This document shows, piece by piece, positions 4,766-32,432 of a stretch of DNA of 32,432 nt. This DNA is from Hyphomicrobiales bacterium. Its GTDB lineage: Bacteria > Pseudomonadota > Alphaproteobacteria > Rhizobiales > Beijerinckiaceae. Within the stretch, counting starts at the first letter, position 1; each line of letters opens with the position of its first letter. A program made the position numbers and the translations under genes. Under the pieces are notes generated by a model. It made no database searches. It saw only the letters and a program-made list of their open reading frames with translations, and had not been told where the DNA came from. Where the stretch lies: positions 1-32,432 of the forward strand of contig JAQGJH010000083.1 of the NCBI GenBank assembly GCA_028290705.1, given 5' to 3'.

Positions 4766-4826
4766 GCCGAGCGTCGAAGCCGCCGCGCGTCCCATGACAA
4801 CACCGGCATTGCAAAAGGCAGATTCC

Positions 4827-6940: not shown

Positions 6941-6949
6941 AAAAGATGT

Positions 6950-6973
6950 CCGAGACGCCGGAAAGGCGTCCGG
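6950..6973 (+). other. Intercistronic hairpin before the SDR gene
   Basis: CCG, a bulged A and GACGCC pair with GGCGTC and CGG around a GGAAA loop. No U-run follows; instead a ribosome site (AGGAGGAAA) comes directly after. It looks like an mRNA-stabilising or translation-modulating hairpin within the operon rather than a terminator. Confidence 0.4.
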
Positions 6974-6989
6974 ATCAGGAGGAAACGCC

Positions 6990-7739: not shown

Positions 7740-7770
7740 GCGTTTCATGCCCTCACCGATGGAGAGTCTC

Positions 7771-8757
7771 ATGCATTTCACACGCACGCTCCTTCTCGCA
7801 GGAACACTCGCCGCCGCCACCCTGTCGACGGCTCTGGCGCAAGCCCAGACCTATCCGGCCCGCGCCATCACGGTGATCGTCCCCTACGCGCCGGGCGGCA
7901 ATACCGACGTGGTGGCGCGCATCGTCACGGAACACATGAGCCGCACGCTGGGACAGCAATTGGTCATCGAGAACAGCGGCGGCGCGGGTGGCACCACGGC
8001 TTCCGGACGGGCATCGAGATCGGAGCCGAACGGCTATACGCTGCTGGTGGGGCAGATGGGCACGCATGCGGCCAGCGTCGGGCTCTATCCGAAGCTTGCC
8101 TATGACCCCGTCACCGATTTCGAGCACATCAGCCAGTTGTCGGACACGCCGATCGCCATCCTGGCGCGCAAGAACTTTCCGGCCAAGGATCTGGCGGAAC
8201 TGATCGCCATGCTGAAGGCCGATCCGGCCAAGTACAACAACGGCCATGGCGGCGTCGGCGCGACCTCGCACGTGTCCTGCCTGTTCTTCACGTCGCTCAT
8301 CGGTGCACGTCCGCCTATGATCGCGTATACGGGCTCCGGCCCGGCGCTCAATGATCTCGTTTCCGGACAGTACGACTTCCTTTGCGATCAGATCCCGCAC
8401 CTCGTCCAGCAGGTGAAGACCGGCAACATCAAGGCTTACGCCGTGGCCCTGCCGGAACGCACGGCAGCGCTGCCCGACGTGCCGACCACCCGCGAGGCCG
8501 GGCTTCCCGAATTTCAGGCCTCCGGATGGAACGCCATGTTCGCGCCCAAGGGAACGCCGCGCGAAATCGTCGAGCGGTTGTCGCGCGCGGTCAACGCAGC
8601 GCTGGAAGATCCGGCCACGAGCCAGAAACTCATTGCCATCGGGGCCGAGCTGCCGCGCAAGGAGTCACGAAGCCCGGACGGCCTGCGCGCTTTCGTGCAG
8701 AGCGAAATCGCCAAGTGGACGCCGATCATGAAGGCTGCGGCCGGCGGCGCGAAGTAG
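7771..8757 (+). CDS. Bug/TctC-type periplasmic solute receptor (2 of 3)
   Basis: This 328-residue protein is a canonical Bug-family receptor. The signal peptide is residues 1-27 (TLLLAGTLAAATLSTALAQA), and the mature protein begins near QTYPARAITVIVPYAPGGNTD. Other family landmarks are IENSGGAGG, PNGYTLLVG, YDPVTDF, MIAYTGSGPALNDLVSGQ, LPDVPTTREAGLPEF and WNAMFAPKGTP. ATG 7771 is chosen because GGAGAG lies just upstream; in-frame ATGs at 7747 and 7759 would add residues before the signal sequence. It belongs to a different branch from the receptors at 1323 and 19448. It ends the region-1 operon, and its last 32 bases overlap the exonuclease gene on the other strand. The ligand is unknown, probably a carboxylate. 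Confidence 0.92.
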   Translation: MHFTRTLLLAGTLAAATLSTALAQAQTYPARAITVIVPYAPGGNTDVVARIVTEHMSRTLGQQLVIENSGGAGGTTASGRASRSEPNGYTLLVGQMGTHAASVGLYPKLAYDPVTDFEHISQLSDTPIAILARKNFPAKDLAELIAMLKADPAKYNNGHGGVGATSHVSCLFFTSLIGARPPMIAYTGSGPALNDLVSGQYDFLCDQIPHLVQQVKTGNIKAYAVALPERTAALPDVPTTREAGLPEFQASGWNAMFAPKGTPREIVERLSRAVNAALEDPATSQKLIAIGAELPRKESRSPDGLRAFVQSEIAKWTPIMKAAAGGAK

Positions 8758-16269: not shown

Positions 16270-16458
16270 CCGGCTCCATCTGTCGACAGTTCCTGCTTAG
16301 CACAGGCCGAAGTAGATGCAAAATGCAGGATCATCCTCGAATCTGTTGACATACTGAGCGCGGCCGGTAGCTTTGTGTGCTGCTCGGGCCAGCAAGGCGC
16401 CGACCTCGCACGGCGAGCAGGCATGCAGCGTCATGCCGCAAGGGAGACGAGCCTTTCC
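16270..16458. promoter_or_regulatory. Divergent promoter/operator region between GntR and the LeuCD operon
   Basis: This 189-base region separates divergent genes. For the plus strand, TTGACA at 16346-16351 and TAGCTT at 16368-16373 (16-base spacing) form a plausible promoter. For the minus strand, TTTGCA and TAAGCA with 17 bases between them can be read around 16298-16326. The palindrome CTGTCGACAG at 16280-16289, extended to AACTGTCGACAG on the minus strand, and CTGTTGACA at 16343-16351 are candidate GntR operators. The plus-strand ribosome site is AGGGAG near 16441. Confidence 0.5.
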
Positions 16459-17847
16459 ATGCCGATGACCATGCTGGACAAGATCTGGAATGCGCATTTC
16501 GTGGCGCGGCGTCTCGATGGACGCGAGATGATTTACGTGGACCGGCACGTACTCCACGAGTTGCACGCACCCCATGCGTTCGAGAAGCTCGGGGCGGCGG
16601 ACCGTGCTGTCCGGCGGCCCGACCTGACCTGGTCGGTGCTGGACCACACGGTGGCGACGAAGCCGGGGCGGACGGAGTTCACGAACCCGGACGGCGCCTC
16701 GTTCCAGCAAGCCATGCGGGCCGGAAGCCGGAAAAATGGCATCCGGATCTTCGACCTCCACGAACCCGAACAAGGCATCAGCCATGTGGTGGCGCCGGAA
16801 CTGGGTCTCGTGCTGCCGGGCGCGACGCATGGCGTGCCGGATTCGCATGCCTGCACGGTGGGAGGGCTCGGGGCGCTGGGGCTCGGCTGCGGAACCAGCG
16901 AGCTCGAGCATATCCTGGCGACGCAGACGATCGCGCTGAAACGACCCAAAAGCCTGCGGATCAACCTGCCGGGCCGGCTCGACAGATACGTCGGTGCGAA
17001 GGACGTCGCGCTGCGGATTCTCGCCCTGCACAAGACATCGTTCGGGCGCGGCTACGCAATCGAGTTTGCCGGTCCAGTGGCGCGCGCGCTTTCGATCGAG
17101 GCGCGTATGACCCTGTGCAATCTCACGATCGAAATGGGATCACGGTCGGGCTTCATTGCGCCCGACGACGCGACCTATGAATATCTGGCCGGCCGGCCCT
17201 TCGCGCCCCGTCGAGCGAACTGGGACGCCGCTTTGCGCCAATGGACGAAGCTTCCCGGCGATCCGGACGCGGCTTTCGATCACGAGATCACCGTCGATTG
17301 CGGCGGACTCGCGCCGCAGATCACCTGGGGAACCGACCAGGGACAGACCATCGGGCTGGACGAAGTCGTCCCGCAGCGTGACGTGGACGGAAGCATCGAG
17401 AAGGTCGAGCGGGCCTTGGCCTATATGGGGCTCGAGCCCGGACGCCCCATCGCGGGCACGAAGATCGATCGTGTGTTCATCGGCTCGTGCACGAATGCGC
17501 GTCTCTCCGACCTGCGCGCCGCCGCGGCCATCGTGCGGGGCCGGCGGGCCGCGCCGGGCGTCATTGCGCTGGTGGTGCCCGGCTCGACGAGCGTCAAGCG
17601 TGCGGCCGAACGCGAAGGTCTCGACCGGGTCTTCGAACAGGCGGGATGCGCCTGGGGCGAGAGCGGCTGCTCGATGTGCGCCGGGGGCAACGGAGACCGC
17701 GGGCTGCCGCAAGAGCGCATCGTCTCGACCACCAACCGCAACTTCGAAGGACGGCAGGGCAAGGGCGTGCGCACGCATCTCGCCGGGCCAGAAGTGGCGG
17801 CTGCATCGGCCATCGCGGGCTGCATCGCCGATCCCCGGCACATGTGA
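16459..17847 (+). CDS. LeuC-like aconitase-family hydro-lyase, large subunit
   Basis: This 462-residue protein has the layout of 3-isopropylmalate dehydratase large subunit, an iron-sulfur enzyme that moves a hydroxyl through a dehydrated intermediate. [4Fe-4S] ligands are visible as the Cys in FIGSCTNAR and the CxxC in GCSMCAGGN. The substrate loop reads PDSHACTVGGLG where true LeuC usually has GDSHTSTHGAFG, and CSMC is followed by AGGN rather than LAMN. These differences and the setting beside a PrpB-like lyase argue for a substrate other than isopropylmalate, for example a methylated maleate/malate pair as in dimethylmaleate hydratase (inference). The start is ATG 16459 with AGGGAG 12 bases away; ATG 16465 is possible. 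The small subunit follows 8 bases downstream. Confidence 0.9.
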   Translation: MPMTMLDKIWNAHFVARRLDGREMIYVDRHVLHELHAPHAFEKLGAADRAVRRPDLTWSVLDHTVATKPGRTEFTNPDGASFQQAMRAGSRKNGIRIFDLHEPEQGISHVVAPELGLVLPGATHGVPDSHACTVGGLGALGLGCGTSELEHILATQTIALKRPKSLRINLPGRLDRYVGAKDVALRILALHKTSFGRGYAIEFAGPVARALSIEARMTLCNLTIEMGSRSGFIAPDDATYEYLAGRPFAPRRANWDAALRQWTKLPGDPDAAFDHEITVDCGGLAPQITWGTDQGQTIGLDEVVPQRDVDGSIEKVERALAYMGLEPGRPIAGTKIDRVFIGSCTNARLSDLRAAAAIVRGRRAAPGVIALVVPGSTSVKRAAEREGLDRVFEQAGCAWGESGCSMCAGGNGDRGLPQERIVSTTNRNFEGRQGKGVRTHLAGPEVAAASAIAGCIADPRHM

Positions 17848-17855
17848 GAGACAGA

Positions 17856-18500
17856 ATGAAGCCCTTCATCGTCACCACCGGAATTGCAGTCCCGTTCGAC
17901 GAGGATGACGTCAATACCGACAAGATCGCTCCCATTCCCACGCGACGCTCGCTCAAGCCCGATCTCGCCGAAATGTTCTTCCACGCCGCACGTCGTCAGG
18001 CCGACGGATCGCTGGACCCGTCGCATGTCCTCAACAAGCCGCGATATGCCCGACCCTCGATCTTCGTGACGGGGCGGAACTTCGGGTGCGGATCTTCGCG
18101 CGAGGGCGCGGTCTGGACCTTTCTCGCCGTGGGGATCACCTGCATCGTCGCCAGATCCATCGCCGATCTCTATCGCGAGAATTGTCTGCAGAACGGCCTC
18201 CTGCCGGTCGAATTGCCGGACGACCGGATGGACGCCTTGCTGGCGCGGGTGCAGCAGGCCGACGGTCTGGAGCCGTTCACAGCCGACTTGAGGACGTGCG
18301 TGATCTCGGGTCCGGGCGGAGCCGATCTACCGTTCGACATTTCCGAGGCCGATCGCACCCGGCTGCTCGAAGGGCTCGACGACATCGGCATGAGCCTGAA
18401 ACACGCGAGCGCCATTGCGGACTGGGAAGAACGCACGCGCCTGCATGCCCCTTGGCTGCAGCAGCCCCACGAGGACGGCAGGGCGGAGCGCACGACATGA
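17856..18500 (+). CDS. LeuD-like aconitase-family hydro-lyase, small subunit
   Basis: This 214-residue swivel-domain subunit pairs with the LeuC-like protein just upstream. Typical motifs are VPFDEDDVNTDKIAPI near the N terminus, RPSIFVTGRNFGCGSSREGAVWTFL, and ARSIADLYRENCLQNGLLPVEL. Genuine LeuD normally has SREHAPWAL; here the motif is SREGAVWTF, so a strongly conserved His is Gly. This supports an altered substrate. ATG 17856 has GAGAGACAG upstream; the open frame extends further back only as a shadow of the large-subunit gene. Its stop overlaps the lyase start (ATGA), so the three genes are translationally coupled. Confidence 0.9.
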   Translation: MKPFIVTTGIAVPFDEDDVNTDKIAPIPTRRSLKPDLAEMFFHAARRQADGSLDPSHVLNKPRYARPSIFVTGRNFGCGSSREGAVWTFLAVGITCIVARSIADLYRENCLQNGLLPVELPDDRMDALLARVQQADGLEPFTADLRTCVISGPGGADLPFDISEADRTRLLEGLDDIGMSLKHASAIADWEERTRLHAPWLQQPHEDGRAERTT

Positions 18501-19387
18501 ACCTGCGCCGGAAGTTTCGCGACCTGCTGGCCGCGCCCGGGCTGCTGCTCGTTCCGGGCGCCTATGACGGGCTGTCGGCCCGCATCATCGAGGAACAAGG
18601 ATTTCAGGCCATCGTAGCCGGCGGATACGCGGCGGCCGGCAGTCTGCTCGGGCAACCCGACACCGGTCAATCCAACATGCGCGATTTCGCCGATCATTAC
18701 GGGCGGATCTGCAGCGCGGTCGACATTCCGGTCTATGCGGATGGCGATACGGGCTTCGGCGGCGTCAACAACGTGCGCCAGACCGTCAAGGCGTTTGAAA
18801 AGGCGGGCGTCGCGGCGCTGTTTTTCACCGACCAGGTTTTCCCGAGCCGGTGCGGATACCTGCCGGGCAAACAGGTCATCCCGCTCGAGCAGATGCTCGC
18901 CAAAGTGAAGGCCGCGTTGGACGCCCGAACCGACGAAGCCATGATGATCTGCGCGCGCACCGACGTCTTCGCGCTCGAAGGCGAGGACGAGGCGATCCGC
19001 AGGTGCCGGGCCTTCATGGAAGCGGGAGCCGACATGGCGAAGCCGCAAGGCATCGACACGCCGGAGGGAATCGGCCGTGTGCTACGGCATGTGCCCGGCC
19101 CTTTCGTGGCGACGCTCTCGCAGGCTGCGGGTCCGAACCATCTCGATGCCGAGCAACTGGAAGCGCTCGGCGTCCATGCCGCGACCCTTCCGTCGCTGAC
19201 ACTGTTCGCGGCCGCGCGGGCCGTGCGGGAGGTTCTCGGAAAGATCAAGCAGACCCGCAGCGTCGCCTCGGTGCAAGACAGACTCATCGCGCTCGACGAC
19301 TACTATCGTGTCGTCAGGCTCGATGAGCAATTGGCGCGCGAGGAGTCCTACGACCGAGATGCCGCCAGCCTCACGCAGAAGTTCTAG
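18497..19387 (+). CDS. Isocitrate lyase/PEP mutase family lyase, PrpB-like
   Basis: This 296-residue protein is a member of the superfamily of methylisocitrate lyase, 2,3-dimethylmalate lyase, oxaloacetate hydrolase and PEP mutase. The N-terminal VPGAYDGLSARIIEEQGFQAIV and the Mg-binding YADGDTGFGG (Asp82, Asp84) are standard. The active loop reads DQVFPSRCGYLPGK. The catalytic Cys119 that marks true C-C lyases is present, but the usual K-R/K-C-G-H is S-R-C-G-Y, losing Lys and His. The later ICARTD and GADM segments also fit. The expected reaction is cleavage of a 2-hydroxy diacid or triacid to pyruvate, glyoxylate or succinate plus an acid. ATG 18497 overlaps the LeuD-like stop. Confidence 0.9.
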   Translation: MNLRRKFRDLLAAPGLLLVPGAYDGLSARIIEEQGFQAIVAGGYAAAGSLLGQPDTGQSNMRDFADHYGRICSAVDIPVYADGDTGFGGVNNVRQTVKAFEKAGVAALFFTDQVFPSRCGYLPGKQVIPLEQMLAKVKAALDARTDEAMMICARTDVFALEGEDEAIRRCRAFMEAGADMAKPQGIDTPEGIGRVLRHVPGPFVATLSQAAGPNHLDAEQLEALGVHAATLPSLTLFAAARAVREVLGKIKQTRSVASVQDRLIALDDYYRVVRLDEQLAREESYDRDAASLTQKF

Positions 19388-19447
19388 CTCTCAAAGAACC
19401 CGCACCCGGAGCAACCGGGGCGATCACACCTTTCGGAGGACAACGCC

Positions 19448-20479
19448 ATGAAAAGATCTCGCTCACTCGTCGGATGCGCATCCATTCTCCTTGCGTCGCT
19501 CTTCGTCCCGGCATCCGCACGGGCACAATCGGATCCGGACTTTTTTCGCAACAAGCAGATCCGGCTGATCGTCGGATTCGCGGCGGGCAACGAATACGAT
19601 CTCGGCGCACGTTTGCTGGCGCGGCACTGGGCCCGGCACATTCCAGGCAACCCAAACATCATCGTGCAGAACATGCCGGCGGCCGCGAGCGTCGTCGCGG
19701 CAAACTACATCGCCACGCAGGCGCCGGCGGACGGAACCGTGATTGGCGCGATCACCCGCAACGTCGTCAATCAGGCGCTGCTCGGCCACCCCAATCTGGT
19801 GGCGGACCCGAAAAAGCTGATCTGGATCGGCGGCACGTCCTTCCCGGGCCGGGTCTGCGTCGCCGGCAGGAACGCTCCGACGAAAGACGCCGCGGACCTT
19901 TTCACCAAGGAGCTAATCGTCGGCAGCAATGGCGCGGGCAATTCGACTCACATCCTTCCGACCGTGTTCAACCAGTTGCTCGGGACCAAGTTCAAGATCG
20001 TCGAGGGCTATCGCGGAACGGCGGACATCCTGCTGGCGATCGAGCGCGACGAAGTACAGGGAGTTTGCGCGTCATACGGACAGTTCAAATCGAGCGCCAA
20101 ATTGTTTCAGGATGGAAAACTCCGCATCTTGTTCCGCGCCGAGGAAGCGGCAATGCCGGAGATTCCGGACGCCAAGTCGATCTATGATTTCGCCAAGACG
20201 GAGCAGCAGAAGCAGTTCATGCGTTTCGTCTTCTCGAGCACGGAGTACGGCCGGCCGTACGTGCTGCCGCCCGGCGTTCCGGCGGATCGTGTGCAGATCC
20301 TGCGCAAGGCCTTCGTGGACGCCGTCAACGATCCGCAATTGATCGCCGAGGCCGAGAAATCTCAGATCGACATGTCGTTCCGTTCACCCGAAGATCTGGA
20401 GGCCATCACGGCCTCGCTCTACAGCACGCCTCCGGGTCTCATCGAGGACGTCAAGAAGCTGCTGCCCAATATGAACTAG
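19448..20479 (+). CDS. Bug/TctC-type periplasmic solute receptor (3 of 3)
   Basis: This 343-residue receptor has a signal peptide at residues 1-26 (SILLASLFVPASARA) and the Bug-fold opening QIRLIVGFAAGNEYDLGARL. QNMPAAASVVAANYIA and APADGTVIGAITRN follow, then LIVGSNGAGNSTHILP. It shares order and many blocks with the receptor at 1323 (PGNP, QNMP, DG-VIG, IVEGYRG versus LVEGYKS, GVCAS versus AVCQS, RKAFVDAVNDP versus RKAFIEAVNDP), so the two are paralogues. GGAGG lies upstream of ATG 19448. It follows the lyase gene by about 60 bases and probably shares its operon. The ligand is presumably the acid processed by the LeuCD/lyase enzymes (inference). No TctA/TctB gene is present. Confidence 0.9.
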   Translation: MKRSRSLVGCASILLASLFVPASARAQSDPDFFRNKQIRLIVGFAAGNEYDLGARLLARHWARHIPGNPNIIVQNMPAAASVVAANYIATQAPADGTVIGAITRNVVNQALLGHPNLVADPKKLIWIGGTSFPGRVCVAGRNAPTKDAADLFTKELIVGSNGAGNSTHILPTVFNQLLGTKFKIVEGYRGTADILLAIERDEVQGVCASYGQFKSSAKLFQDGKLRILFRAEEAAMPEIPDAKSIYDFAKTEQQKQFMRFVFSSTEYGRPYVLPPGVPADRVQILRKAFVDAVNDPQLIAEAEKSQIDMSFRSPEDLEAITASLYSTPPGLIEDVKKLLPNMN

Positions 20480-20538
20480 CGTGCAAGGCCTGCGCTCCAC
20501 GGGGCGCGGGCCTGGGCCCCGAATGACAGTCAACGGAG

Positions 20539-21264
20539 ATGACAGTGTCGAGCTTCGCATTTGCAACGAGCACAACGAACGGGGTCGTCCGCATCGATCT
20601 GAGCCGCCCCGACGAGGGCAACAAGTTGACGCGGGGCATGATGCGGGACCTGTCCGAAACCATCCGCAAGCATGGCCAGGAGGCGGACACGCGCGTGGTC
20701 GTCCTCGAAGGTCGCGGCGATTTTTTCTGCGCCGGGCGCGATGGACGCGGCGAGACCACCGATGGACTCAAGCCGCATGAAGTGCGCGAACAGATGATGG
20801 GCGCGGTCCTGTCCGTCTACGCTGCCATCAACGCCTGCCCGCTACCGGTCGTGGCGCTGGTGCGCCGGCCTGCCGTCGGCTTCGGGGCGGCGCTTGCGGG
20901 CGGGTGCGACATCACCCTCGTGGCCGAGGACGCGAGCCTCGCCTTCAGCGAGATCAAGCACGGAATTCCGCCGACGCTCGCGATGGCGGCCGTGATGAAG
21001 AAAGTGCCGGCCAAGGCGCTTGCCTGGCTGATCTTCTCCGGCGCCGACGTTTCGGCCCGGGAGGCCGTGACGATGGGCCTCGCCAGCAAGGCATTCGCTG
21101 CGGACGCCTTTGCGGCCGAGAGCGACCGCTTCCTGAACGAACTTGCTTCGCGTCCGCGCATCGTCCTGGAGACGATCAAGAAGTTCATGCTCACCGCGCA
21201 GGACATGTCCGCCGCGCAACAATCGGAATATGCCGGCACGTTGCTGGCGCTCGTGCGCTCCTGA
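20539..21264 (+). CDS. Enoyl-CoA hydratase/isomerase (crotonase) family protein
   Basis: This 241-residue crotonase-fold protein normally acts on acyl-CoA thioesters by stabilising an enolate. The CoA-side FFCAGRDGRGE loop and oxyanion-hole segment VGFGAALAGGCDI are present. Of the two catalytic Glu of true hydratases, the first (in GGxCEL) is Ala here (GFGAAL). The second is kept in FSEIKHGIPP. This pattern suits isomerases, decarboxylases or lyases more than a hydratase. GGAG lies very close to ATG 20539, so translation might instead use GTG 20545, where the spacing is better. It is the fifth gene of the plus-strand operon. No CoA ligase or transferase is in the window to make its substrate. 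Confidence 0.9.
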   Translation: MTVSSFAFATSTTNGVVRIDLSRPDEGNKLTRGMMRDLSETIRKHGQEADTRVVVLEGRGDFFCAGRDGRGETTDGLKPHEVREQMMGAVLSVYAAINACPLPVVALVRRPAVGFGAALAGGCDITLVAEDASLAFSEIKHGIPPTLAMAAVMKKVPAKALAWLIFSGADVSAREAVTMGLASKAFAADAFAAESDRFLNELASRPRIVLETIKKFMLTAQDMSAAQQSEYAGTLLALVRS

Positions 21265-21330
21265 TTTGACACGGGCCATGGGCCCACGGGATGAGCATCG
21301 GCATCAAAGCTTCAAGAAAAGGCGATACGA

Positions 21331-22128
21331 ATGACGGGCGCAATCGAGAAGACCATGGTCAGCCGGGGCGCGGTCCGGCTTGAGGTGCTGGCTCAGGGAT
21401 CAGGACCCACGATGGTGCTCCTGCCCTCGCTGGGCCGCGGCGCCGAGGACTTCGACCCGATGGCCGAGCACCTGGCTCAGGATGGCTTTCGCGTCCTGAG
21501 GCCGCAGCCGCGCGGCATCGGCTCGTCCAGCGCCACGCCGACCTATGCGGATCTCGAGGATTGCGCGGGAGACGTTGCGGCGGTGATCGAAGCTGATAGG
21601 AACGGCCCGGCCATCATGGTGGGGCATGCGTTTGGCAATCGCGTGTCGCGCATGCTCGCCACTGCGCGGCCGGACCTCGTGACGGGCGTCGTGCTGGTGG
21701 CCGCCAATGTCGGGCATGCGCCCAGCCCGCCGAACGTGCGCGAGGCGATCCGCAACAGCGCCAACCCGGACCTGCCCGACACGGTCCGGCTCGAAGCCCT
21801 GCAATTCGCCTTCTTCGCGCCTGGCAATGATGCGAGCGGGTGGCTGCGCGACTGGTATCCCGAGGTCCTGGCCAGCCAACGCCATGCCGGAGATCAGACG
21901 GCGCGCAGCATCGACTATGCGGCCGGGCGTGCGCCGGTCCTCTACATGCAGCCCAGCCACGATCCGCTGGCGCATGCGGAAGACGCGGTCGAATACAAGG
22001 CCGCGCTCGGGGATCGACTGACCGTGGTGAAGATCCCGTCGTCGAGCCATGCGGCCATCGCCGAACAGCCTGTCTTCATCGCCCGGGAGATCGGCACGTG
22101 GGCGCGCACCATCCTCGATCGGCCATGA
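21331..22128 (+). CDS. Alpha/beta-hydrolase-fold protein with Ala in place of the nucleophile
   Basis: This 265-residue protein has a clear alpha/beta hydrolase fold: oxyanion strand MVLLPSLGRGAEDF, the RPQPRGIGSS turn, a nucleophile elbow, a lid region, and late acid and base positions (PSHDPLAHAED, SSSHAAIAEQP). The elbow is GHAFGN at 98-103, so the nucleophile Ser is Ala100 (GCG codon), with no frame disturbance. The protein may therefore catalyse a nucleophile-independent reaction such as a retro-aldol, lyase or decarboxylation step, or may bind without hydrolysing. Start ATG 21331 follows AAAAGGCG. It is the last gene of the LeuCD/lyase operon. Confidence 0.9.
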   Translation: MTGAIEKTMVSRGAVRLEVLAQGSGPTMVLLPSLGRGAEDFDPMAEHLAQDGFRVLRPQPRGIGSSSATPTYADLEDCAGDVAAVIEADRNGPAIMVGHAFGNRVSRMLATARPDLVTGVVLVAANVGHAPSPPNVREAIRNSANPDLPDTVRLEALQFAFFAPGNDASGWLRDWYPEVLASQRHAGDQTARSIDYAAGRAPVLYMQPSHDPLAHAEDAVEYKAALGDRLTVVKIPSSSHAAIAEQPVFIAREIGTWARTILDRP

Positions 22129-22284: not shown

Positions 22285-23628
22285 TCACCTTTCCCGGAAA
22301 GTGCGCTCGAACTGGTCGGTGAACGGTTTGACGAAGTATGAAAGCGGCGTCCGCTCTTCGGTCGCGATGAAGACTTCGACAGGCATCCCGGGCAGCAGCT
22401 TGCGATCGCCCAGCTTGCCGGCATCGGCCGTGAACCGCACTTCGCCGGTGTAATGCATCTGACCCGTCGCGGCATCACGTGTGACCGAGGGCGAAACGTG
22501 CACCACGTCGCCGCGGATTTCCGGGGTCGTATTTCTGTTGAAAGCCGTGAAGCGGAGGCGTGCGTGTTGTCCCGTGCGGACCTGATCGATGTCGGCCGGA
22601 GCCAGCTTCACCTCGACCCGCAGGTCCGCCTTGTCGGGAACGATCGTCATCATCCGCGCCGCCGGAGTGACGACTCCTCCGACGGTGAAGACCGTCAGTT
22701 CGTTCACCCAACCGGATATCGGGGCGCGCACGTCGACGCGCGACAGCCTGTCCTCGATCGCCACGCGCCGGTCCGCCAGCTCTGAAATGCGCGCATCGAC
22801 CTGCCGCAGTTCGCGCTGCGCATCGGTGCGCGCCGTCTGGTCCACCGTGATGATCTGAAGCCTGGCTTCACTGATCCGCACGTTGGCGCGCGCGATGGCG
22901 GCATCGATCTCGCCGGCTTCGCCCCGCAGCCGGATCCATTCGACGTTGATCGCATGCACGCGCGCGCTCGAGATGAGCCCCTGCTTCAGAAGCTGGTTCA
23001 GTTTCGACCGCTCGGCCTCGACAATGCCGATCTCGTCGCTCTTTGCGCTGCGCCTGGCCGCCAGGCCACGCAATTCCTCGCCCGTCTGTTCGATGCTGAA
23101 GGCGAGTTGTTGCTTCTGGCTGTCGCGATGCTGCTTGTTGCCGGTGAACAGAAGCGTCTCGCCCAGGATCGTCGTTTCGACCTCGGGCAGCAGATCACCA
23201 AGATCGGCCGGGAATTGCAGCGTTTCGAGCGTGTCGCGCTCGGCGATCAGGCGCGTGCGGCGTGCCAGCAGTTCGCCGAGCTGGGTCCGGGTGATCGAGA
23301 GCTCGGCCTTGATCTGGACGTCGTCGAAGCGCAGCAGGATCTGGCCTTTCTGCACGTGATCGCCTTGCCGCACGGCGATCTGGTCGACAATACCACCGTC
23401 GCGATGCTGAACGTCCTTCAGATTGTCATCGACCTTCAGGACGCCCTGCCCGATGACCGCGCCTTCCAGTCGCGCCATCGCCGCCCAGCTGCCGCAGACG
23501 CCGACGAGGAAGACCGCCATCACCAGGCCGGCGGTGACGTGCGGCCTGATACGGAATTGCCGGGCCGCTGGCGGAGACGACATGCTGCGGCTCACGTCTT
23601 CGTAGAGATTGCGTTGCTGCTCGCCCAT
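22285..23628 (-). CDS. HlyD-family type I secretion adaptor (PrsE-like)
   Basis: This 447-residue periplasmic adaptor links an inner-membrane ABC exporter to an outer-membrane TolC-type channel. One membrane helix lies at about residues 30-52 (VTAGLVMAVFLVGVCGSWAAM). The first half-lipoyl segment follows (VDDNLKDVQHRDGGIVDQIAVRQGDHVQKGQILLRFDD). A long coiled-coil hairpin spans about residues 105-300, rich in Arg, Glu, Leu and Ala. The second lipoyl half and beta-barrel come next (VRAPISGWVNELTVFTVGGVVTPAARMMTIVP). The C terminus (LLPGMPVEVFI) is the usual family end. AAGGGG precedes ATG 23628. It is the last gene of the secretion operon, 28 bases after the RTX gene at 23657. No TolC homologue is in the window. 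Confidence 0.94.
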   Translation of the reverse strand: MGEQQRNLYEDVSRSMSSPPAARQFRIRPHVTAGLVMAVFLVGVCGSWAAMARLEGAVIGQGVLKVDDNLKDVQHRDGGIVDQIAVRQGDHVQKGQILLRFDDVQIKAELSITRTQLGELLARRTRLIAERDTLETLQFPADLGDLLPEVETTILGETLLFTGNKQHRDSQKQQLAFSIEQTGEELRGLAARRSAKSDEIGIVEAERSKLNQLLKQGLISSARVHAINVEWIRLRGEAGEIDAAIARANVRISEARLQIITVDQTARTDAQRELRQVDARISELADRRVAIEDRLSRVDVRAPISGWVNELTVFTVGGVVTPAARMMTIVPDKADLRVEVKLAPADIDQVRTGQHARLRFTAFNRNTTPEIRGDVVHVSPSVTRDAATGQMHYTGEVRFTADAGKLGDRKLLPGMPVEVFIATEERTPLSYFVKPFTDQFERTFRER

Positions 23629-23656: not shown

Positions 23657-25609
23657 TCAGGCGAGTTCGCCGTAAATCAGCTGTTGACGGCCGTGAAGGC
23701 TGATCGAATAGGCGATCTCGGCGTCGTCCGAAGCCTCGTCACGGTAGACGTCGATGTATGTGTCCTCTTCGTCGTCGTCGTCTCTTCGTTCGACCCGGAA
23801 GCGGAAGCTCCGCACGTCATCCGACGCATTCAGGAACTGGTTCTCGAACCGCGCATCGTCATCGCGATCATCACGGTCGTCTTCGTCCTCATCCTCGTCG
23901 CGTCGACGAATCTCGTATCCGCGCACGAGGATGCGGTCGCCGACTTCGAGATCAGTGATCTCGTGCACGTAGGCCATGTGAGGCGCCGCTTCGACCGGCT
24001 CAGGCGTTGCGAACGAGAAGGTGTTCTGGCCGCCGCCGCCCGTCAGCGTGACGGGGACGTCGCCGACGGCGAACACATCGTCACCGCTTCCACCCACGAA
24101 GGATTCGAAGCCCGAGAAGCCATCGGCGCCCGACTCGCCGCTGGCCGTTCCAGCCGCGATGTCGATCAGAATGCCGGTCTGCGCCGCGGCGAACGAAAGC
24201 GTGTCACGGCCTTCGCCCCCCTCGAACAGATCGGTCGATCCGTCGGCTGCCGCCAGCACGACGTCGTCGCCCGCATCGCCGGACACGCGATCCGCACCCG
24301 CGCCGTCGGCCAACACGTCGTGGCCGTCACCGCCGGATACGAGATCATCGCCCGCGCCAGCGTCAATCGTGTCTCGGCCTTCCTCGCCAAAGAGCCGGTC
24401 CTGACCGGCGCCGCCGAACACGACGTCCGATCCGAGCCCCGCCATGATCAGGTCGTCGCCCGCGTCCCCATACAGGACGTCGTCGCCATCTTCTCCGAAG
24501 AGCCGATCGTCGCCGCTTTCGCCACGCAGGATGTCGTGGCCGGAGCCGCCATACACGACATCGTTGCCGGCTCCGGCGTAGACGATGTCGTTTCCCCCGC
24601 CTGCCAGGATATGATCGTCTCCGGCGCCGCCGTGGATCACATCGTTGCCGCCGCGCGCATCTATGATGTCGTCGCCGCCGCCCGCCTCGATCGAGTCGTC
24701 CTTCAGTGTGCCGACAAGAATATCGGCGTTTTCGGTGCCGGATAACGGCGGCTTGCGCATGACGTCGAAAGTCGCAGTCTGCGACACCGCCTGTTTGCCA
24801 TCGCTGATCGAAAAAGCCAGCGTCACCTGCCCGAGCTGCCCTTCGCCCGGCGTGTAGATCCAGCCGCCCTCGGCCGCTTCAATCTTTCCTGACGACGCCT
24901 TCAGCCCGGTCACGCCCAGCGTGTCACGATCGGGATCCACCGCGCCGCCGAGCAGCAGCGCCAGCGGCAGGAAGACCGGATGCGATTGCACAATGTCGGA
25001 CAGGCGCAATGGCCCGGTGACGCGCGGCGCGCGGTTGCGTGCCTCGTCGTCCTCGATTGGCTTTTCCTTGTCGCCGCTCTTGGAACCACCGGCATCGCCG
25101 GCGCCGCTCGCTGCTTGGTGACGGCTCGATGTCGCAGGTTCGCGCGGTGCGGCATTGTCGTTGACGGGACCCGCGAAGGAGTGCGGAATGAAAGCGTCGG
25201 CCCGTGCTGACAGCCGCTGGAAATCGAGCGGCTTCTCGTCTTCGAAAAATCGTTCGAAGATGCGCCCGCCGCTCCCCATGGGGCGTAGGGGAAGCGCCGA
25301 AGACCCGCCCTCGGAGTCTTCTTCCGCCTCGTTGCGGCGCTCGGCCGATGATCCTTCATCCTCACGCTGAGCGGCGAGTTGCGCCGGACGCAAGGCAGGT
25401 GTGTCCGGCGTCTGCTCCTGAGGCCTGGAAATCTCGGGCGCGGGCGACGCGACCACGAACAGGCTCTTGAAATACACCAGGACCCCGGTCAGCAGAGCCG
25501 CAATCGCTGCAGGCGTGCGCAGCGACGTGGGCACATCCTTCTGCGCATAGGCGGCGTGCGAGGGGCCGGTCTCCTCCGGGGCTTGCTGCTTGGGCGCGAT
25601 CTTGATCAT
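23657..25609 (-). CDS. Membrane-anchored RTX protein with cadherin-like domain and acidic tail
   Basis: This 650-residue protein has an unusual layout. A cytoplasmic-looking N terminus is followed by one hydrophobic helix at 33-53 (PAAIAALLTGVLVYFKSLFV) and a disordered Pro/Glu/Ser linker to about residue 195. A cadherin-like beta domain spans about 200-285 (GWIYTPGEGQLGQVTLAFSI, then SDGKQ). About ten nonapeptide RTX repeats (GGxGxDxLx type) run at 291-470, where Ca2+ would bind. The tail at 570-622 is extremely acidic and Arg-rich (RRRDEDEDEDDRDDRDDDAR). The usual type I C-terminal secretion signal is not evident. The gene overlaps the exporter stop by four bases and precedes the adaptor gene. 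It could be an accessory of the secretion complex or a surface-tethered protein. The function is unknown. Confidence 0.88.
   Translation of the reverse strand: MIKIAPKQQAPEETGPSHAAYAQKDVPTSLRTPAAIAALLTGVLVYFKSLFVVASPAPEISRPQEQTPDTPALRPAQLAAQREDEGSSAERRNEAEEDSEGGSSALPLRPMGSGGRIFERFFEDEKPLDFQRLSARADAFIPHSFAGPVNDNAAPREPATSSRHQAASGAGDAGGSKSGDKEKPIEDDEARNRAPRVTGPLRLSDIVQSHPVFLPLALLLGGAVDPDRDTLGVTGLKASSGKIEAAEGGWIYTPGEGQLGQVTLAFSISDGKQAVSQTATFDVMRKPPLSGTENADILVGTLKDDSIEAGGGDDIIDARGGNDVIHGGAGDDHILAGGGNDIVYAGAGNDVVYGGSGHDILRGESGDDRLFGEDGDDVLYGDAGDDLIMAGLGSDVVFGGAGQDRLFGEEGRDTIDAGAGDDLVSGGDGHDVLADGAGADRVSGDAGDDVVLAAADGSTDLFEGGEGRDTLSFAAAQTGILIDIAAGTASGESGADGFSGFESFVGGSGDDVFAVGDVPVTLTGGGGQNTFSFATPEPVEAAPHMAYVHEITDLEVGDRILVRGYEIRRRDEDEDEDDRDDRDDDARFENQFLNASDDVRSFRFRVERRDDDDEEDTYIDVYRDEASDDAEIAYSISLHGRQQLIYGELA
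24200..24739 (-). repeat. RTX nonapeptide repeat block of the membrane-anchored protein
   Basis: The coding DNA repeats in 27-base steps that encode GGxGxDxLx units (for example GGNDVIHGGAG, GDDHILAGG, GNDIVYAGAG). They should stack as Ca2+-binding beta-rolls outside the reducing cytoplasm. The units are diverged from one another, so this is an old protein repeat, not a recent DNA tandem array. Confidence 0.85.
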
Positions 25610-27440: not shown

Positions 27441-30400
27441 TCAGCGGATGAAGTTCGCATCCGTGAGTGTGTGATGACCCTCGAGCTCGAGACGGAATTC
27501 CGCATCGGCCTGCGTGTCGACATTGCCTTGCACCACCGTGATCTGGCCCGCGGCCGTCGTCTCGTAGGTGATCGTCAGCTGTCCGGCGCCGCTCAGGCTC
27601 GCCCCCAGCGTGAAGGCCTGGTCGCCCGCAACCCCGAGATTGGCGTCGATCCCCGAGAGATCGATCTTGTCGCCAGGTTCGAAGCCGAGAATGCGGTCGC
27701 CGTTCGCCGCCGCATAGGTTTCGAACCGGAACGTATCGGCGCCGTCGCCGCCGTCGAGGATGTTCGCCGCCAGGCTCGCGGTGATGATGTCGGCTCCCGA
27801 GCCGGTGATGACGTTCTCGATGCTCGTGAGCTGATCGGTCCCGCTCTGCGCGCTCGATGCCGAACCGCGCGACCCAGTTCCGAGATCGACCTGCACGCTG
27901 GCGGTGAGAGCCGACATGTCGAGCGTGTCGACGCCTTCTCCACCATCGTAACTGTCATCGCCGTCGCCGACGGACGCCACGAACATGTCGTTTCCGGCTT
28001 CACCCGCAACGATGTCGTTTCCGGCGCCCGCGTCCACGAGGTCGTCGCCTGCGCCCGCAAAGATGCGGTCGGCTCCGGCCTCACCGTAGATCATGTCCGC
28101 ACCGCCTTCGCCGAACAGGTGGTCGTCGCCTGCGCCGCCGAACACGATGTCCCGGCCCTCGCCGGCCTTGACGAAATCAGCGCCGTCGCCGGCCGAAATC
28201 GTGTCGGCGCCGCCGCCGGCCACGATGACGTCGTCACCCGCGAAAGCGATGATGTCGTCGTTCGTGGCTTGCCCGGTGAGCACGTCGGCCTGCGCGGTTC
28301 CGACGATCAATCCCGATGATGGGGGCGTCGGGTCGACGTCCGTCACGGGAGGCGCTTCCTCAACGTCTTGCTCGTCGTCTTGCTCTTCCTCCTGCTCAGG
28401 AAGATCGTCGTCGTCAGGCGTGAACCCGGAGCCCTGGCCCGGGTTGTCGTCATCGGCGTCTTCTGCTTCCTCCTCGTCCTCGTCGTCCGCCTGCGCAACC
28501 GCGATCTCGGGCAGGCCGGCGGCCGCGAAGGTGATGGAATATGCGCCGGTGCGAACGGTTTTGGTGCCATTCCCGTTGTCCAGCGTTTCCACGGCCGCGA
28601 GGTTCGATCCAGCCGGCAGCTCGATGACGTCCTGCGGCCGAAGCGTCCCGATGATCGTGTCATTGCCGCCGTTCGAGCGGAACACGATGCGATGCGCGGA
28701 TGCGAGGCTCGTGATGTCCACCGTGTCGTCGGTTGCCGCGCCGTCGATCGTGATGGTGCTGAAATTCAGGCTGGTGCCGGTGAAGTCTCCCACCACCGCG
28801 ATGCTGTCGCCGCCATTCGCTCCGCCGGCCGCTCCGCCCGGCGTCGTGACGCCGAGCGTGTTCACCCGGATCTCCTCGATGTTGTCGAGCTCGGCGATCA
28901 CCGCGCCGTTGCGCGCGATCACGATCTCGGTGTTCAGCGCCAGCGCCAGGCCGGTGAAGGCCGAGAGCGCGGCCGCACGACTGTAGATGACGAAATTCTC
29001 GGCTCCGGTCGCACCGTTGAGCTGGTAGGTATCGACACCGGCTCCGCCATCCACGATGTCACGGCCACCTGCGGTCGATCCCTGGGTGATCGTGTCGTTG
29101 CCGTCGAGCCCGAAGATGATCTGCGAGCCGTTTCCACCGTTGAGCGCATTGGCGGCATTGGTTCCGGCCGTGACGCCGAACGACTGTCCATTGAAGTTCA
29201 GCGTTTCGACATTGCTGATCGTATCCGTGCCATCCACACCGTTGACATCGGTCACGACGATCTGGCCGGGCGTCGCCGTGAAGGCAAAATTGCCGACCGC
29301 ACTGCCATAGACCGCAGTATCGGCGCCCGCGCCGCCGTCGAGCCTGTCGTCACCCGCGCCGCCGTTCAGCGTATCCGCCCCGCCCTGGCCGTTCAGGATG
29401 TCATTGCCTGCATTGCCGTTGAGCGTGTCATTTGCCCCAAAGCCAAAGACGCCGCTGGTGCCGTTGGCGATGTCGTCGCCGGCGGTGCCGTTGAACGTAT
29501 TGGATACGAGCGGAATGGCGTTCCAATTGTCGCCGACCACTCCGGTCGGGACGGAGAAGAGCGTTTCGACGTTACCGGCGCCGTCCGTGAAGGTCACGCG
29601 AACACGCAGGACATCCCCCACCTGGCTGCCAAGCCCCAGCACGCCGTCGTTCGGAGTAAAAGATGGACCGGTCGCGTTGATCAACAGATTGGTCCAGGTG
29701 GCTCCCCCGTCCTCCGAGACCTGCCACTGATACGCAAAAGTCCCGAGCCCATTGGCGTCCGAAATTCCAGAGGTGTCGACGGTCAGCGTCTGCCCTTCCG
29801 TCGGCGTCTGATCGCTGATCACCGGCAGGCCGACGGGCGCAGCATTGAACAGTGTCGAGACATCCACGACGCCGTCGGAGAAACGCAGTTTCTCGATGTT
29901 GAACAGCCGGTCGGTTCCGTCCGACTCGCGGGCGCGGCCGCTCGTGGGGTCGACAGGCCCGTCGCTGACGGTGACGTGTTCGACCATGATGCTGCCATCC
30001 TGGTTCGCCGTGAACGCGTAATTGTCCTTGAGATCCCAGAAGACCGCCGTGTCGACGTCACCGTCCCTGCCGCCGTCGAGGATTTCTCGGACAATGTGCA
30101 GCTGCGACGGATTGAAGGTTCCGTCGAACATGAGTTCGGCCAGCGTGCGGCCGCCGTAAAGAACATCGCCGCCGGCATCATGGATGGGCTCCGACATGCC
30201 GTCGGCGCTGCCGATCTCGATGCCGTCCGTCGTTCTCAGGCTGATGCGGACGTTGAGCCAGCGGTCGCCATCGAGAATGTCGTTGCCGGCCATCCCCTCG
30301 ATCGTGTCGCTGCCGCCGCCGCCCATGATGATGTCCGAGCCATCGGACGTGTCCATCACGATCGTTTCAGTCTTGCCCGCCACCGTGACTTGTGTGCGCG

Positions 30401-32432
30401 TCAGGTGATCGGTGAGCTGATCGAGACCCGAGATCAGGCCGATGTTCTTCTCGAGGAGCGCGTTCGAATAGGAGTCGAGCGGCGCATCGGGATCGACTTG
30501 CGTGGCATTGCCGTTGGCATCGTAGGCGCCGATGACGAACTCGCGGCCGATCAGTCGATCGTCCTTGTCCCAGCCAGAAAGGCCTTCGACGAGATCGAAG
30601 CGATCACGCAGGATGTTGTCCTGCTGGTTGGTGAAAATCGAAACGTTCATGTCGGAGTTGGCGGCCTGGTCATTGCCCTTGTGGATGGCCCAATCGAAGC
30701 CCGCCATGCCGTTGTTGCGCTGGATGCCGGGGCCCTGGACCATGATGTCGTCGCCCGACTCGGCGTCGTAATCATTGTCGTTGCCGCGGCCGTTCAACAC
30801 GTCGTGCCCGATGATCGTCGAGTTGAAGAACAACTCGGAATTCTCGCCCGCGAGAGTGTCGAAGCTGTCACCGCCTTCGATCCAGTCGTCGCCCTCGTTA
30901 CCGGCAAGGAAGCTCAGGCCGCTCGGCCCCTGGATGAAATCGTCGCCGCGACCTCCCGAAACGGTCTTGTCCTCGGACCCGCCATAGATGAAGTCCTTAC
31001 CGGCGCCGCCGAAGATGAGATCAAGGCCGTTGCCGCCGTTGATGACGTCGTTACCATCATCGCCGTGGATCACGTCCGCGGCGCCGACATCCGTGCCAGA
31101 ATCCGTGATGATGTCGTCGCCGGCGCCGCCATGCAGATGATCGACACCGAAGCCGCCTTCGAGGCGGTCATTGCCCGCAACGCCCCAGATCGTATCGTCG
31201 CCCTCTCCCGCGATGAGGATGTCGTTCTCACTGGTGCCACCCAGCACGACGTGGTCGCCGCCCGTGTAGCGCAGCACGTCCGTGTCGCCGTCATTGTCGA
31301 GATCCTGCCGGATGACCAGCGGATTGATGGCTGCAAGCACCGGGTTCGATCCGAGAGGATCGGCCTTTCCGTCCGGGCCGAGGCCGGTGTATTGGCGCGT
31401 CTGATCCATCTCGAGAATGTAGGCGGCGGTCTGGAAGGCCGCGCCATTGATGTGGACGCCGGATTCGCCGATGTCCGTGTTGCGCTCGAGGAGCTGCGCG
31501 AACGAATCCGCCTCCAGTTCGTTCAGCAGGTTCAGGCCCTGGGTGCGGCTGAGATAGTAGAGCCGGTCGCCGTCCTGCAGTCGCTCCATCTGGACTTCGA
31601 AGACGAAATTGAAGGTCGAGCCGAGCATGCCGCCGAAGGGCATCTTCTTCTCGGCCAGGCCGCCAATCCAGAAATCGACGGTGTTCAGCCCGGATTCGAG
31701 GTCGGACCAGCTGCCGGAGCTGTTCAGGAACTCGATGCGGTCCCCGGGTTCGCCATTGCCGCCCAGCACCAGCAGCGTCGCCGCCGCCCGCTTGCCGGCG
31801 AGGGTGGTCTCGTCGGTGATCGACTCGTGCTTCCCATAGGCCGCGATGAAGTTGATGATCGAGGCCGGGTTCTTCAGGTTCAGCGCGAAATCCACCCAGC
31901 TGTCATAGGGCTTCAGCTGGGTATCCGACGTCGCCGCGAAGAAGGTCTCGCGCGCCGCGTTGAGCGACGGCATGCCGACGTCCCGGCCGCGGGCGAGGTT
32001 GATGGTGGCGAGGTCGAGCGGCAGGCCGAGCAGGTTGTCGCGCAGCGCCCCGGTGACGAACTCGTCGATCTCGTTGCCCGTCTGGCGGGTCATGCCGCGG
32101 ATGATCGCGCCGGCCGCCGCATCGGCGGTGCCCCCGGCGGCGAAGGCCAGCGGGTTCAGGAAGGCCTCGATCAGCCCGATGTCCTGGTTGACCGGCACGC
32201 CGTCCACCATGGAGATCCGGGCGACGTCCTCGGTGAGCATCGAGTGGCCGAAGCGGTAGACGACATGGGCGAATTCCGCCGTGATGGCGGGGTCGATGTC
32301 GACCGAGGGCTCGAAGACGAAGACATCGATGTCCGGCTGGATCTTGCGGGCGAATTCCTCGAAGACGAGGTGCTGGTACTCCATCTCGGTGACGAAGCGT
32401 CCCGCCTGGAACAGCCGCTCGCCGTCCCAGAC
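27441..32432 (-). CDS. Secreted animal-type haem peroxidase with RTX repeats, MopA-like (5' end missing)
   Basis: The frame is open to the right edge, giving about 1,663 residues and lacking the N terminus. Numbering from the Met at 32384, residues 1-345 are the C-terminal part of an animal-haem-peroxidase domain. The proximal haem His47 is in VVYRFGHSML, and the family motif NLARGRDVGMPSLNAAR is at 129-145. RTX repeats follow at about 375-530 and 680-705. Then come an Ig-like domain at about 850-950, RTX repeats at 961-1120, an acidic linker at 1298-1345, RTX repeats at 1357-1485, and a serralysin-like C-terminal domain ending HHTLTDANFIR, the probable type I signal. This architecture matches Mn(II)-oxidising MopA-type peroxidases of marine alphaproteobacteria (family knowledge). 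The distal His and Arg are off-window. The exporter genes follow. Confidence 0.9.
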   Translation of the reverse strand, partial: VWDGERLFQAGRFVTEMEYQHLVFEEFARKIQPDIDVFVFEPSVDIDPAITAEFAHVVYRFGHSMLTEDVARISMVDGVPVNQDIGLIEAFLNPLAFAAGGTADAAAGAIIRGMTRQTGNEIDEFVTGALRDNLLGLPLDLATINLARGRDVGMPSLNAARETFFAATSDTQLKPYDSWVDFALNLKNPASIINFIAAYGKHESITDETTLAGKRAAATLLVLGGNGEPGDRIEFLNSSGSWSDLESGLNTVDFWIGGLAEKKMPFGGMLGSTFNFVFEVQMERLQDGDRLYYLSRTQGLNLLNELEADSFAQLLERNTDIGESGVHINGAAFQTAAYILEMDQTRQYTGLGPDGKADPLGSNPVLAAINPLVIRQDLDNDGDTDVLRYTGGDHVVLGGTSENDILIAGEGDDTIWGVAGNDRLEGGFGVDHLHGGAGDDIITDSGTDVGAADVIHGDDGNDVINGGNGLDLIFGGAGKDFIYGGSEDKTVSGGRGDDFIQGPSGLSFLAGNEGDDWIEGGDSFDTLAGENSELFFNSTIIGHDVLNGRGNDNDYDAESGDDIMVQGPGIQRNNGMAGFDWAIHKGNDQAANSDMNVSIFTNQQDNILRDRFDLVEGLSGWDKDDRLIGREFVIGAYDANGNATQVDPDAPLDSYSNALLEKNIGLISGLDQLTDHLTRTQVTVAGKTETIVMDTSDGSDIIMGGGGSDTIEGMAGNDILDGDRWLNVRISLRTTDGIEIGSADGMSEPIHDAGGDVLYGGRTLAELMFDGTFNPSQLHIVREILDGGRDGDVDTAVFWDLKDNYAFTANQDGSIMVEHVTVSDGPVDPTSGRARESDGTDRLFNIEKLRFSDGVVDVSTLFNAAPVGLPVISDQTPTEGQTLTVDTSGISDANGLGTFAYQWQVSEDGGATWTNLLINATGPSFTPNDGVLGLGSQVGDVLRVRVTFTDGAGNVETLFSVPTGVVGDNWNAIPLVSNTFNGTAGDDIANGTSGVFGFGANDTLNGNAGNDILNGQGGADTLNGGAGDDRLDGGAGADTAVYGSAVGNFAFTATPGQIVVTDVNGVDGTDTISNVETLNFNGQSFGVTAGTNAANALNGGNGSQIIFGLDGNDTITQGSTAGGRDIVDGGAGVDTYQLNGATGAENFVIYSRAAALSAFTGLALALNTEIVIARNGAVIAELDNIEEIRVNTLGVTTPGGAAGGANGGDSIAVVGDFTGTSLNFSTITIDGAATDDTVDITSLASAHRIVFRSNGGNDTIIGTLRPQDVIELPAGSNLAAVETLDNGNGTKTVRTGAYSITFAAAGLPEIAVAQADDEDEEEAEDADDDNPGQGSGFTPDDDDLPEQEEEQDDEQDVEEAPPVTDVDPTPPSSGLIVGTAQADVLTGQATNDDIIAFAGDDVIVAGGGADTISAGDGADFVKAGEGRDIVFGGAGDDHLFGEGGADMIYGEAGADRIFAGAGDDLVDAGAGNDIVAGEAGNDMFVASVGDGDDSYDGGEGVDTLDMSALTASVQVDLGTGSRGSASSAQSGTDQLTSIENVITGSGADIITASLAANILDGGDGADTFRFETYAAANGDRILGFEPGDKIDLSGIDANLGVAGDQAFTLGASLSGAGQLTITYETTAAGQITVVQGNVDTQADAEFRLELEGHHTLTDANFIR
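27930..28316 (-). repeat. C-terminal RTX repeat block of the peroxidase
   Basis: Consecutive glycine- and aspartate-rich nonapeptides (GGADTISAGDGADFVKAGEG, GGAGDDHLFGEGGADMIYGE, AGAGDDLVDAGAGNDIVAGE) precede the serralysin-like tail. They are expected to fold on Ca2+ binding after export and to pull the long protein through the channel. Confidence 0.85.
28350..28493 (-). repeat. Acidic low-complexity linker in the peroxidase
   Basis: Codons for Asp, Glu and Gln recur as near-simple GAN repeats, encoding DDEDEEEAEDADDD and later DDDDLPEQEEEQDDEQD. The segment separates two RTX-bearing halves and is probably a flexible, cation-binding spacer. Simple repeats of this kind can vary in length between strains. 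Confidence 0.7.
29025..29504 (-). repeat. Middle RTX repeat block of the peroxidase
   Basis: Nonapeptides such as FNGTAGDDIANGTSG, NAGNDILNGQGGADTLNGG and AGDDRLDGGAGAD alternate with short non-repeat beta segments (FAFTATPGQIVVTDVNG). This layout is common in large secreted RTX adhesins and enzymes. Confidence 0.8.
30795..31262 (-). repeat. First RTX repeat block, directly after the peroxidase domain
   Basis: Units such as GGTSENDILIAGEGDDTIWG, AGNDRLEGGFGVDHLHGG, GNDVINGGNGLDLIFGG and AGKDFIYGGS follow the haem domain without a long linker. The run is interrupted by less regular segments (NSTIIGHDVLNGRGND). Confidence 0.82.

Follow-up and report, generated by a model that had tools for sequence, protein, structure and literature searches.

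By what route does a giant peroxidase leave the cell, acquire its haem and stay close by? We examined a locus that raises this question, on a 32,432-nucleotide stretch of DNA (the window) that is one entire contig (C55) of a 3.0-Mb assembly with 148 contigs and 73.9% completeness. The list of open reading frames, searched with Pfam and TIGRFAM-type profiles, contains four genes in a row on the minus strand, which are given here in order of transcription:

27441..32432, minus strand: peroxidase gene, truncated at its 5' end; 1663 amino acids encoded in the contig, open at the contig edge
25606..27366, minus strand: type I secretion ABC permease/ATPase of the PrtD type, 586 amino acids (TIGR01842, 650 bits, cut-off 510)
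23657..25609, minus strand: cadherin-RTX gene, 650 amino acids (Pfam Cadherin_5 and HemolysinCabind, alignment, linkage to peroxidases)
22285..23628, minus strand: HlyD-family type I secretion adaptor, 447 amino acids (TIGR01843, 339 bits, cut-off 209)

A gap of 74 bases separates the peroxidase and ABC genes, and the ABC and cadherin-RTX genes overlap by 4 bases. The same four-gene order occurs on plasmids of Azospirillum, Limimaricola, Paracoccus and Tardiphaga and in L024, a locus from a Beijerinckiaceae MAG (JAIEQX010000344). L024 is the closest relative of the window over the whole operon. Its proteins are 88% (ABC), 88% (HlyD) and 56% (N-terminal part of the cadherin-RTX protein) identical to those of the window. 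We consider it likely that the locus is a dedicated export operon for a giant extracellular haem peroxidase, a judgement that extends to the mechanism and the cadherin-RTX role set out below.

The peroxidase and its relatives

The original prediction for this DNA had described the truncated frame as an animal-type haem peroxidase of MopA-type architecture, with three RTX blocks, a tail for type I export and its own exporter genes downstream. All of these features were recovered. Pfam PF03098 matched the frame with 127.1 bits (E = 1e-36, cut-off 25); the best stretch covers profile positions 248-447 and a second one positions 447-523. The best solved relatives by sequence are the cyanobacterial lactoperoxidase 8S6C, peroxinectin A and the mammalian eosinophil, lacto- and myeloperoxidases. 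A loose scan found 22 RTX nonapeptides, whereas 200 shuffles averaged 3.3 and never exceeded 10. Eighteen of the 22 fall in three clusters, and the other four are isolated. The serralysin model NF035945 aligns by its C-terminal part with residues 1538-1656, at a score below its whole-protein cut-off, and the two exporter genes that follow both exceed theirs.

30849..31238, minus strand: RTX cluster 1, 9 nonapeptides (residues 399-528)
29310..29489, minus strand: RTX cluster 2, 4 nonapeptides (residues 982-1041)
27918..28139, minus strand: RTX cluster 3, 5 nonapeptides (residues 1432-1505)
27465..27821, minus strand: C-terminal region like that of serralysins, probably the type I secretion signal (NF035945 positions 336-456 of 462)

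RTX repeats, a C-terminal signal region and adjoining ABC and HlyD genes are the marks of a type I substrate. The peroxidase carries all three, and we infer from them that it is secreted and folds with Ca2+.

We compared the peroxidase with known systems. Long peroxicins (the name appears in PMC4420034 and PMC6247904) are giant open reading frames of about 1600-3300 amino acids with haemolysin-type Ca-binding repeats (PMC4420034). With 1663 residues, about 550 missing ones and three RTX clusters, the window protein would by its sequence be one of them, a single-domain member of the MopA/PepA kind whose relatives share its architecture and distal motifs. MopA of Erythrobacter sp. SD-21 (2138 amino acids, one peroxidase domain) resembles it in having one N-terminal haem peroxidase domain and C-terminal RTX repeats, with an expected length of about 2200 amino acids for the window protein; this likeness is one of architecture and not of directly aligned sequences. 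Unlike SD-21 MopA, which has three PERCAL motifs (PMC3396595 Table 3), the part of the window peroxidase in the contig contains no strict PERCAL motif, the N-terminal half of the domain lying outside it. A loose PERCAL motif at residue 478 falls outside the catalytic domain, and the full L024 frame has one strict motif.

PepA (PP_2561) from Pseudomonas putida KT2440 shares the haem peroxidase, RTX repeats and serralysin-like tail (PMC3396595) but has two peroxidase domains with PERCAL inserts. A protein from P. putida W15Oct28, whose size and PERCAL count lead us to regard it as the PepA/MopA orthologue (PMC3396595 Table 3), has two peroxidase domains and 10 PERCAL motifs. At its locus, unlike the window, the ABC and HlyD genes lie upstream, divergent and adjacent, with no gene between them. 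Plasmid p3 of Azospirillum argentinense Az39 (WP_040137410 and the next three genes) has the four-gene order of the window and one peroxidase domain, with 59% identity in the compared region; it differs in that its gene is complete and plasmid-borne, with kinase- and regulator-like genes beside it. The L024 peroxidase is 93% identical to that of the window over residues 301-720. It differs in being only 70% identical over residues 1-300 and in having both the N-terminal half of the domain and a divergent kinase/regulator pair.

The family is broad but thinly spread. The 80 named relatives retained from among the matches listed, of 581 confirmed, belong to the Alphaproteobacteria, Betaproteobacteria and Gammaproteobacteria, with a single MAG of the Chloroflexota; the set is exclusive of the proven MopA proteins of Erythrobacter SD-21 and Aurantimonas SI85-9A1. 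In a quick tree search with long branches and SH-aLRT support only, the window fragment groups with Sphingomonas oleivorans (L026), an Aurantimonadaceae MAG (L052) and L089 (SH-aLRT 96), and the P. putida W15Oct28 protein sits in a different clade. Matches at E = 1e-60 or better occur in 27 of 397 genomes of the order, including the window's own, so the distribution is patchy. Four of 36 other genomes of the genus have a match at E = 0.001. Two-domain proteins of Alphaproteobacteria (L021, L064, L081, L091, L102 and others) have second domains that form one distant group (14 rows, SH-aLRT 100), unlike two-domain Pseudomonas proteins, in which the second peroxidase domain is close to the first. 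The peroxidase by itself thus belongs to a known kind of enzyme, and the novelty rests on the operon with its cadherin-RTX gene.

We also considered the genes around the operon. Catabolic neighbours had been predicted and are present, including two MmgE/PrpD proteins, an SDR, two TctC receptors, an aconitase, a PEP mutase-like protein, an ECH and a hydrolase:

3392-8757 and 16375-22128, plus strand: organic-acid catabolic-looking region (Pfam), convergent with the secretion operon

The setting looks incidental, however. The adjoining genes (16375-22128) lie on the strand opposite to the operon and converge with it, and in L024 an RTX frame follows the HlyD gene instead; we therefore set aside a functional link between the peroxidase and the catabolic genes. 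Near the peroxidase of Paracoccus sp. MC1862 there are likewise acyl-CoA genes and a TctC-type receptor, presumably by chance.

A NarX/NarL-like histidine kinase and a LuxR-type response regulator were both matched in 32 of 93 long-peroxicin loci, L024 included, which suggests that peroxidase expression is regulated. The pair often lies just upstream of the peroxidase and divergent from it; the window ends before that point.

L024:5571-7720, divergent from the peroxidase: histidine kinase and response regulator pair (Pfam)

The end of the contig

Residue 2 of the window peroxidase aligns with residue 552 of L024, which places about 550 N-terminal residues beyond the contig edge. The window spans its whole contig, so the half of the domain that bears the distal His, the Arg and the ester-forming acidic residues is out of sight. 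Within the window's own assembly, the N-terminus of the Azospirillum protein matched nothing beyond the window, the N-terminus and head of the L024 protein matched the window alone, and the L024-type histidine kinase found no match; these empty searches are weak because the assembly is only 73.9% complete. Alignment of 26 relatives to the window fragment shows next to no variation in the distal motifs FGQFFDHG and GDGRxNE, and those of L024 align with the distal sites of 8S6C. The window copy, whose distal half lies off the contig and had no match elsewhere in the assembly, is presumed to be catalytic. That missing half could also mark a broken or non-catalytic remnant, but we think this very improbable: the frame is open up to the contig edge, the exporter genes are intact and the proximal motifs are conserved. 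Two other draft contigs, L017 (G038:C279) and L020 (G002:C38), break in the same gene 70-75 residues upstream of the window's break, so this region may be hard to assemble.

The part of the gene nearest the edge differs from the rest:

31611..32432, minus strand: terminal segment of differing origin, approximately codons 1-274 (identity break, head and tail trees, GC3 change)
32241..32258, minus strand: proximal-His motif YRFGHS, aligned with YRVGHT of the bacterial lactoperoxidase 8S6C
31968..31988, minus strand: GRDVGMP motif, with the Asn that should bond the proximal His ahead of it

Identity between the window and L024 peroxidases is 68-71% over residues 1-300, 91-95% over residues 301-700, 88% over residues 701-800 and then 51-88% per hundred residues; finer steps place the break near residues 245-260. 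The resulting tail-minus-head difference of +23.5 points is the largest among 3655 pairs of relatives (mean -13.5, sd 7.1). Trees of the two parts disagree. The head tree, built on residues 1-245 with 46 rows, joins the window to S. oleivorans with support of 82.8, under the 95 mark. A group of window and L024 is rejected for the head (p-AU = 1e-6) and a group of window and S. oleivorans for the tail (p-AU = 7e-7), both groups having been named after the identity profile was seen, so that these p values are not blind. In the tail tree (residues 256-720), window and L024 join with support of 100. Independently of this, GC3 drops from 94.5% to 81.8% at codon 274, with a log-likelihood gain of 14.6; the largest gain in 500 shuffles, scanned at every fifth position, was 8.5. 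The head-tail GC3 difference in the genes of 82 relatives averages 0.7 and reaches at most 6.7, and none of 25 further segments of 250 codons, taken from the 16 genes of the window that were measured, exceeds 85.2% GC3.

Because identity, tree position and GC3 all break near codons 245-274, the terminal 0.8 kb or so has another origin than the rest. This bears on the two motifs, YRFGHS and GRDxGxP, on which the original prediction had relied: both are present, but both sit in this segment. There, YRFGHS and TINLARGRD, which hold the proximal His and the Asn that bonds it (role as given in PMC4420034), align with 8S6C and eosinophil peroxidase. We conclude that the segment, motifs included, is either a swapped catalytic domain or an assembly chimera, and we lean slightly to the chimera, in which a foreign peroxidase piece was joined at a conserved stretch and the organism's own catalytic domain is L024-like. 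The location of the segment at a contig end of a draft assembly, the record identity jump, the opposite pairings rejected by the AU tests and a GC3 break far beyond the relatives' maximum all point that way. Against it, recent natural recombination or domain replacement would look identical, and the 74% complete assembly yielded no second, L024-like head. The mosaic end is thus a warning that YRFGHS and GRDVGMP may be foreign to this organism. What remains of the peroxidase domain does belong to the contig, as do RTX tail and exporter, and the designation as a peroxidase gene stands regardless, since the domain from about residue 250-275 onward lies outside the terminal segment.

The cadherin-RTX gene

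The third gene of the operon encodes a protein with the following features:

25448..25504, minus strand: predicted single transmembrane helix, residues 36-54 (Kyte-Doolittle mean 2.13 over 19 residues)
24761..25036, minus strand: cadherin-like domain, residues 192-283 (PF17892, E = 2.9e-14)
24068..24631, minus strand: RTX cluster, 12 nonapeptides (nonapeptide scan)

We asked how often this gene accompanies peroxidases. From 91 loci examined, the 42 with an ABC gene in view form the count; the other 49 have less than 1.5 kb of downstream sequence (26 loci) or no ABC match in view or within 7 kb (23 loci). The ABC gene is followed by a cadherin-RTX gene in 22 of the 42 loci, and in two more (L016, L052) when these are read further. 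In two loci (L021, L073) the gene in this place is shorter, and its product is hydrophobic near the N-terminus and matches nothing in Pfam; in 16 the HlyD gene follows directly. The ABC proteins divide in the same way, with 55-88% identity to the window in loci with a cadherin-RTX or short gene versus 35-50% in those with HlyD directly. On plasmids, the closest 29 ABC homologues (58-71%) all lie in the 32 peroxidase records, and the thirtieth (51%) does not.

When the cadherin-RTX protein was searched against the 397 genomes, all 13 matches that start before query residue 100, the window's own included, lie beside such peroxidases, on the same contig and within about 12 kb. Other matches cover later parts, mainly the cadherin domain, and some of them are beside peroxidases and some are not. 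The gene was found in 17 of the 27 peroxidase genomes, 16 by same-contig search and one (G037) by reading; these searches scored a limited number of candidates in each genome (5 or 6 where there were more), and G037 was missed in this way. No same-contig match was found in 10 of the 27 genomes with a strong peroxidase match, one of which (G223) has a match on another contig. These 10 genomes indicate that the cadherin-RTX protein is not essential to the enzyme class. All 27 listed plasmid records with a match that starts at or before residue 225 fall within the 32 peroxidase records. Among the matches listed, 13 further plasmid records match later parts only, and 36 more records stand beyond those listed. 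In three of these 13, H90-H92, which are not peroxidase records, the match starts at residue 250, inside the cadherin domain. Nothing in the S. oleivorans genome, nearest to the head of the window peroxidase, matched the N-terminal region of this protein.

When 23 sequences were aligned, two of which are shorter forms, the helix region proved recurrent, and so did the cadherin domain outside the short forms. The N-terminal hydropathy peak ranges from 1.34 to 2.13 in the 23 sequences measured and is 1.6 or more in 17 of them. Under a simple rule for picking starts, the 4-base overlap with the ABC gene recurs in 11 of 20 loci. A profile search found no solved structure for the N-terminal part, and a literature search that covered few subscription papers found no published description of the protein; the one paper that came close names cadherin solely in a table of motifs. 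Thus the cadherin-RTX protein, probably membrane-anchored, is apparently undescribed.

What might the protein do? One parallel is the Rap/PrsDE system of Rhizobium leguminosarum. Rap proteins are extracellular, bind polysaccharide and are exported by PrsDE, and they have a cadherin-like domain, as does the cadherin-RTX protein, which may also share their type I secretion and Ca2+ binding (PMC9298526). The cadherin-RTX protein could likewise be a second, fully secreted matrix protein that shares the exporter. Its Cadherin_5 (PF17892) domain fits this idea, as do the exit of Rap proteins with cadherin-like domains through PrsDE (PMC9298526) and the L135 homologue, whose C-terminus reads as serralysin-like. 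We nevertheless doubt it, while granting it a real chance. Unlike Rap, the protein has a predicted membrane helix, which argues against release, and a linkage to peroxidases; a hydrophobic N-terminal stretch in all 23 measured sequences is unexpected for a released substrate, and the linkage is strict. A bolder proposal makes it a dedicated fourth exporter component for long peroxicins of Alphaproteobacteria, held in the inner membrane and tied to the ABC gene by translational coupling, which would retain the peroxidase on the cell or aid its haem uptake and folding during export. We offer this detailed version tentatively and think it rather unlikely to hold as stated.

Substrate and proposed mechanism

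By analogy, Mn(II) is the best-precedented substrate, with halides or phenols also possible; this is a matter of precedent and not of evidence from the locus. Direct Mn(II) oxidation by bacteria is known for two types of enzyme, of which the MopA-type peroxidases form one; MopA proteins of this architecture oxidize Mn(II) in several Alphaproteobacteria, with that of Erythrobacter SD-21 needing haem and Ca2+ (PMC6247904). The Mn-oxidizing Bosea strain BIWAKO-01 carries a MopA-like gene together with a multicopper oxidase (PMC5122683), and two Bosea loci (L037, L084) in our set have the same four-gene operon. Genes annotated with a multicopper oxidase domain also lie near the peroxidase on two Rhodobacterales plasmids (L021:1983-4316 and L131:1-1460), an intriguing pairing for Mn oxidation.

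The enzyme may instead act on substrates other than Mn(II), as a haloperoxidase or as a general phenol or radical peroxidase in defence, matrix cross-linking or oxidative stress. Of the substrates assayed, CyanoPOX (8S6C), its closest solved relative by sequence, used iodide with the highest efficiency (PMC11776367), the PepA domain shows peroxidase activity with haem (PMC3396595), and the window fragment's clade is separate from the P. putida protein. The alphaproteobacterial MopA record (PMC6247904) and the Bosea BIWAKO-01 gene, which does come with a multicopper oxidase (PMC5122683), speak against this alternative. We give it a substantial chance, somewhat short of even.

With Mn(II) kept as the best-precedented substrate, we propose the following model for the operon. 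The peroxidase would be made unfolded in the cytoplasm, where its serralysin-like C-terminus would be recognized, and the adjacent PrtD-type ABC transporter and HlyD adaptor would move it out. RTX substrates of type I systems are exported C-terminus first, and Ca2+ then folds their RTX parts. A TolC-like outer-membrane protein, absent from the window, would complete the exporter. Outside the cell, Ca2+ would fold the RTX regions, and the N-terminal domain would take up haem and oxidize its substrates. The cadherin-RTX protein, whose N-terminal helix probably serves as an inner-membrane anchor, would face the periplasm beside the exporter. There it may serve the exporter/peroxidase pair, either by helping export or by holding the enzyme at the cell; haem loading is a further option.

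If the cadherin-RTX protein is indeed a dedicated exporter component, it would represent a kind of type I secretion accessory for which we found no description in the literature searched. A gene so closely tied to peroxidases, and located inside their exporter operon, is a direct candidate for the step at which these giant enzymes are exported, loaded with haem or retained.
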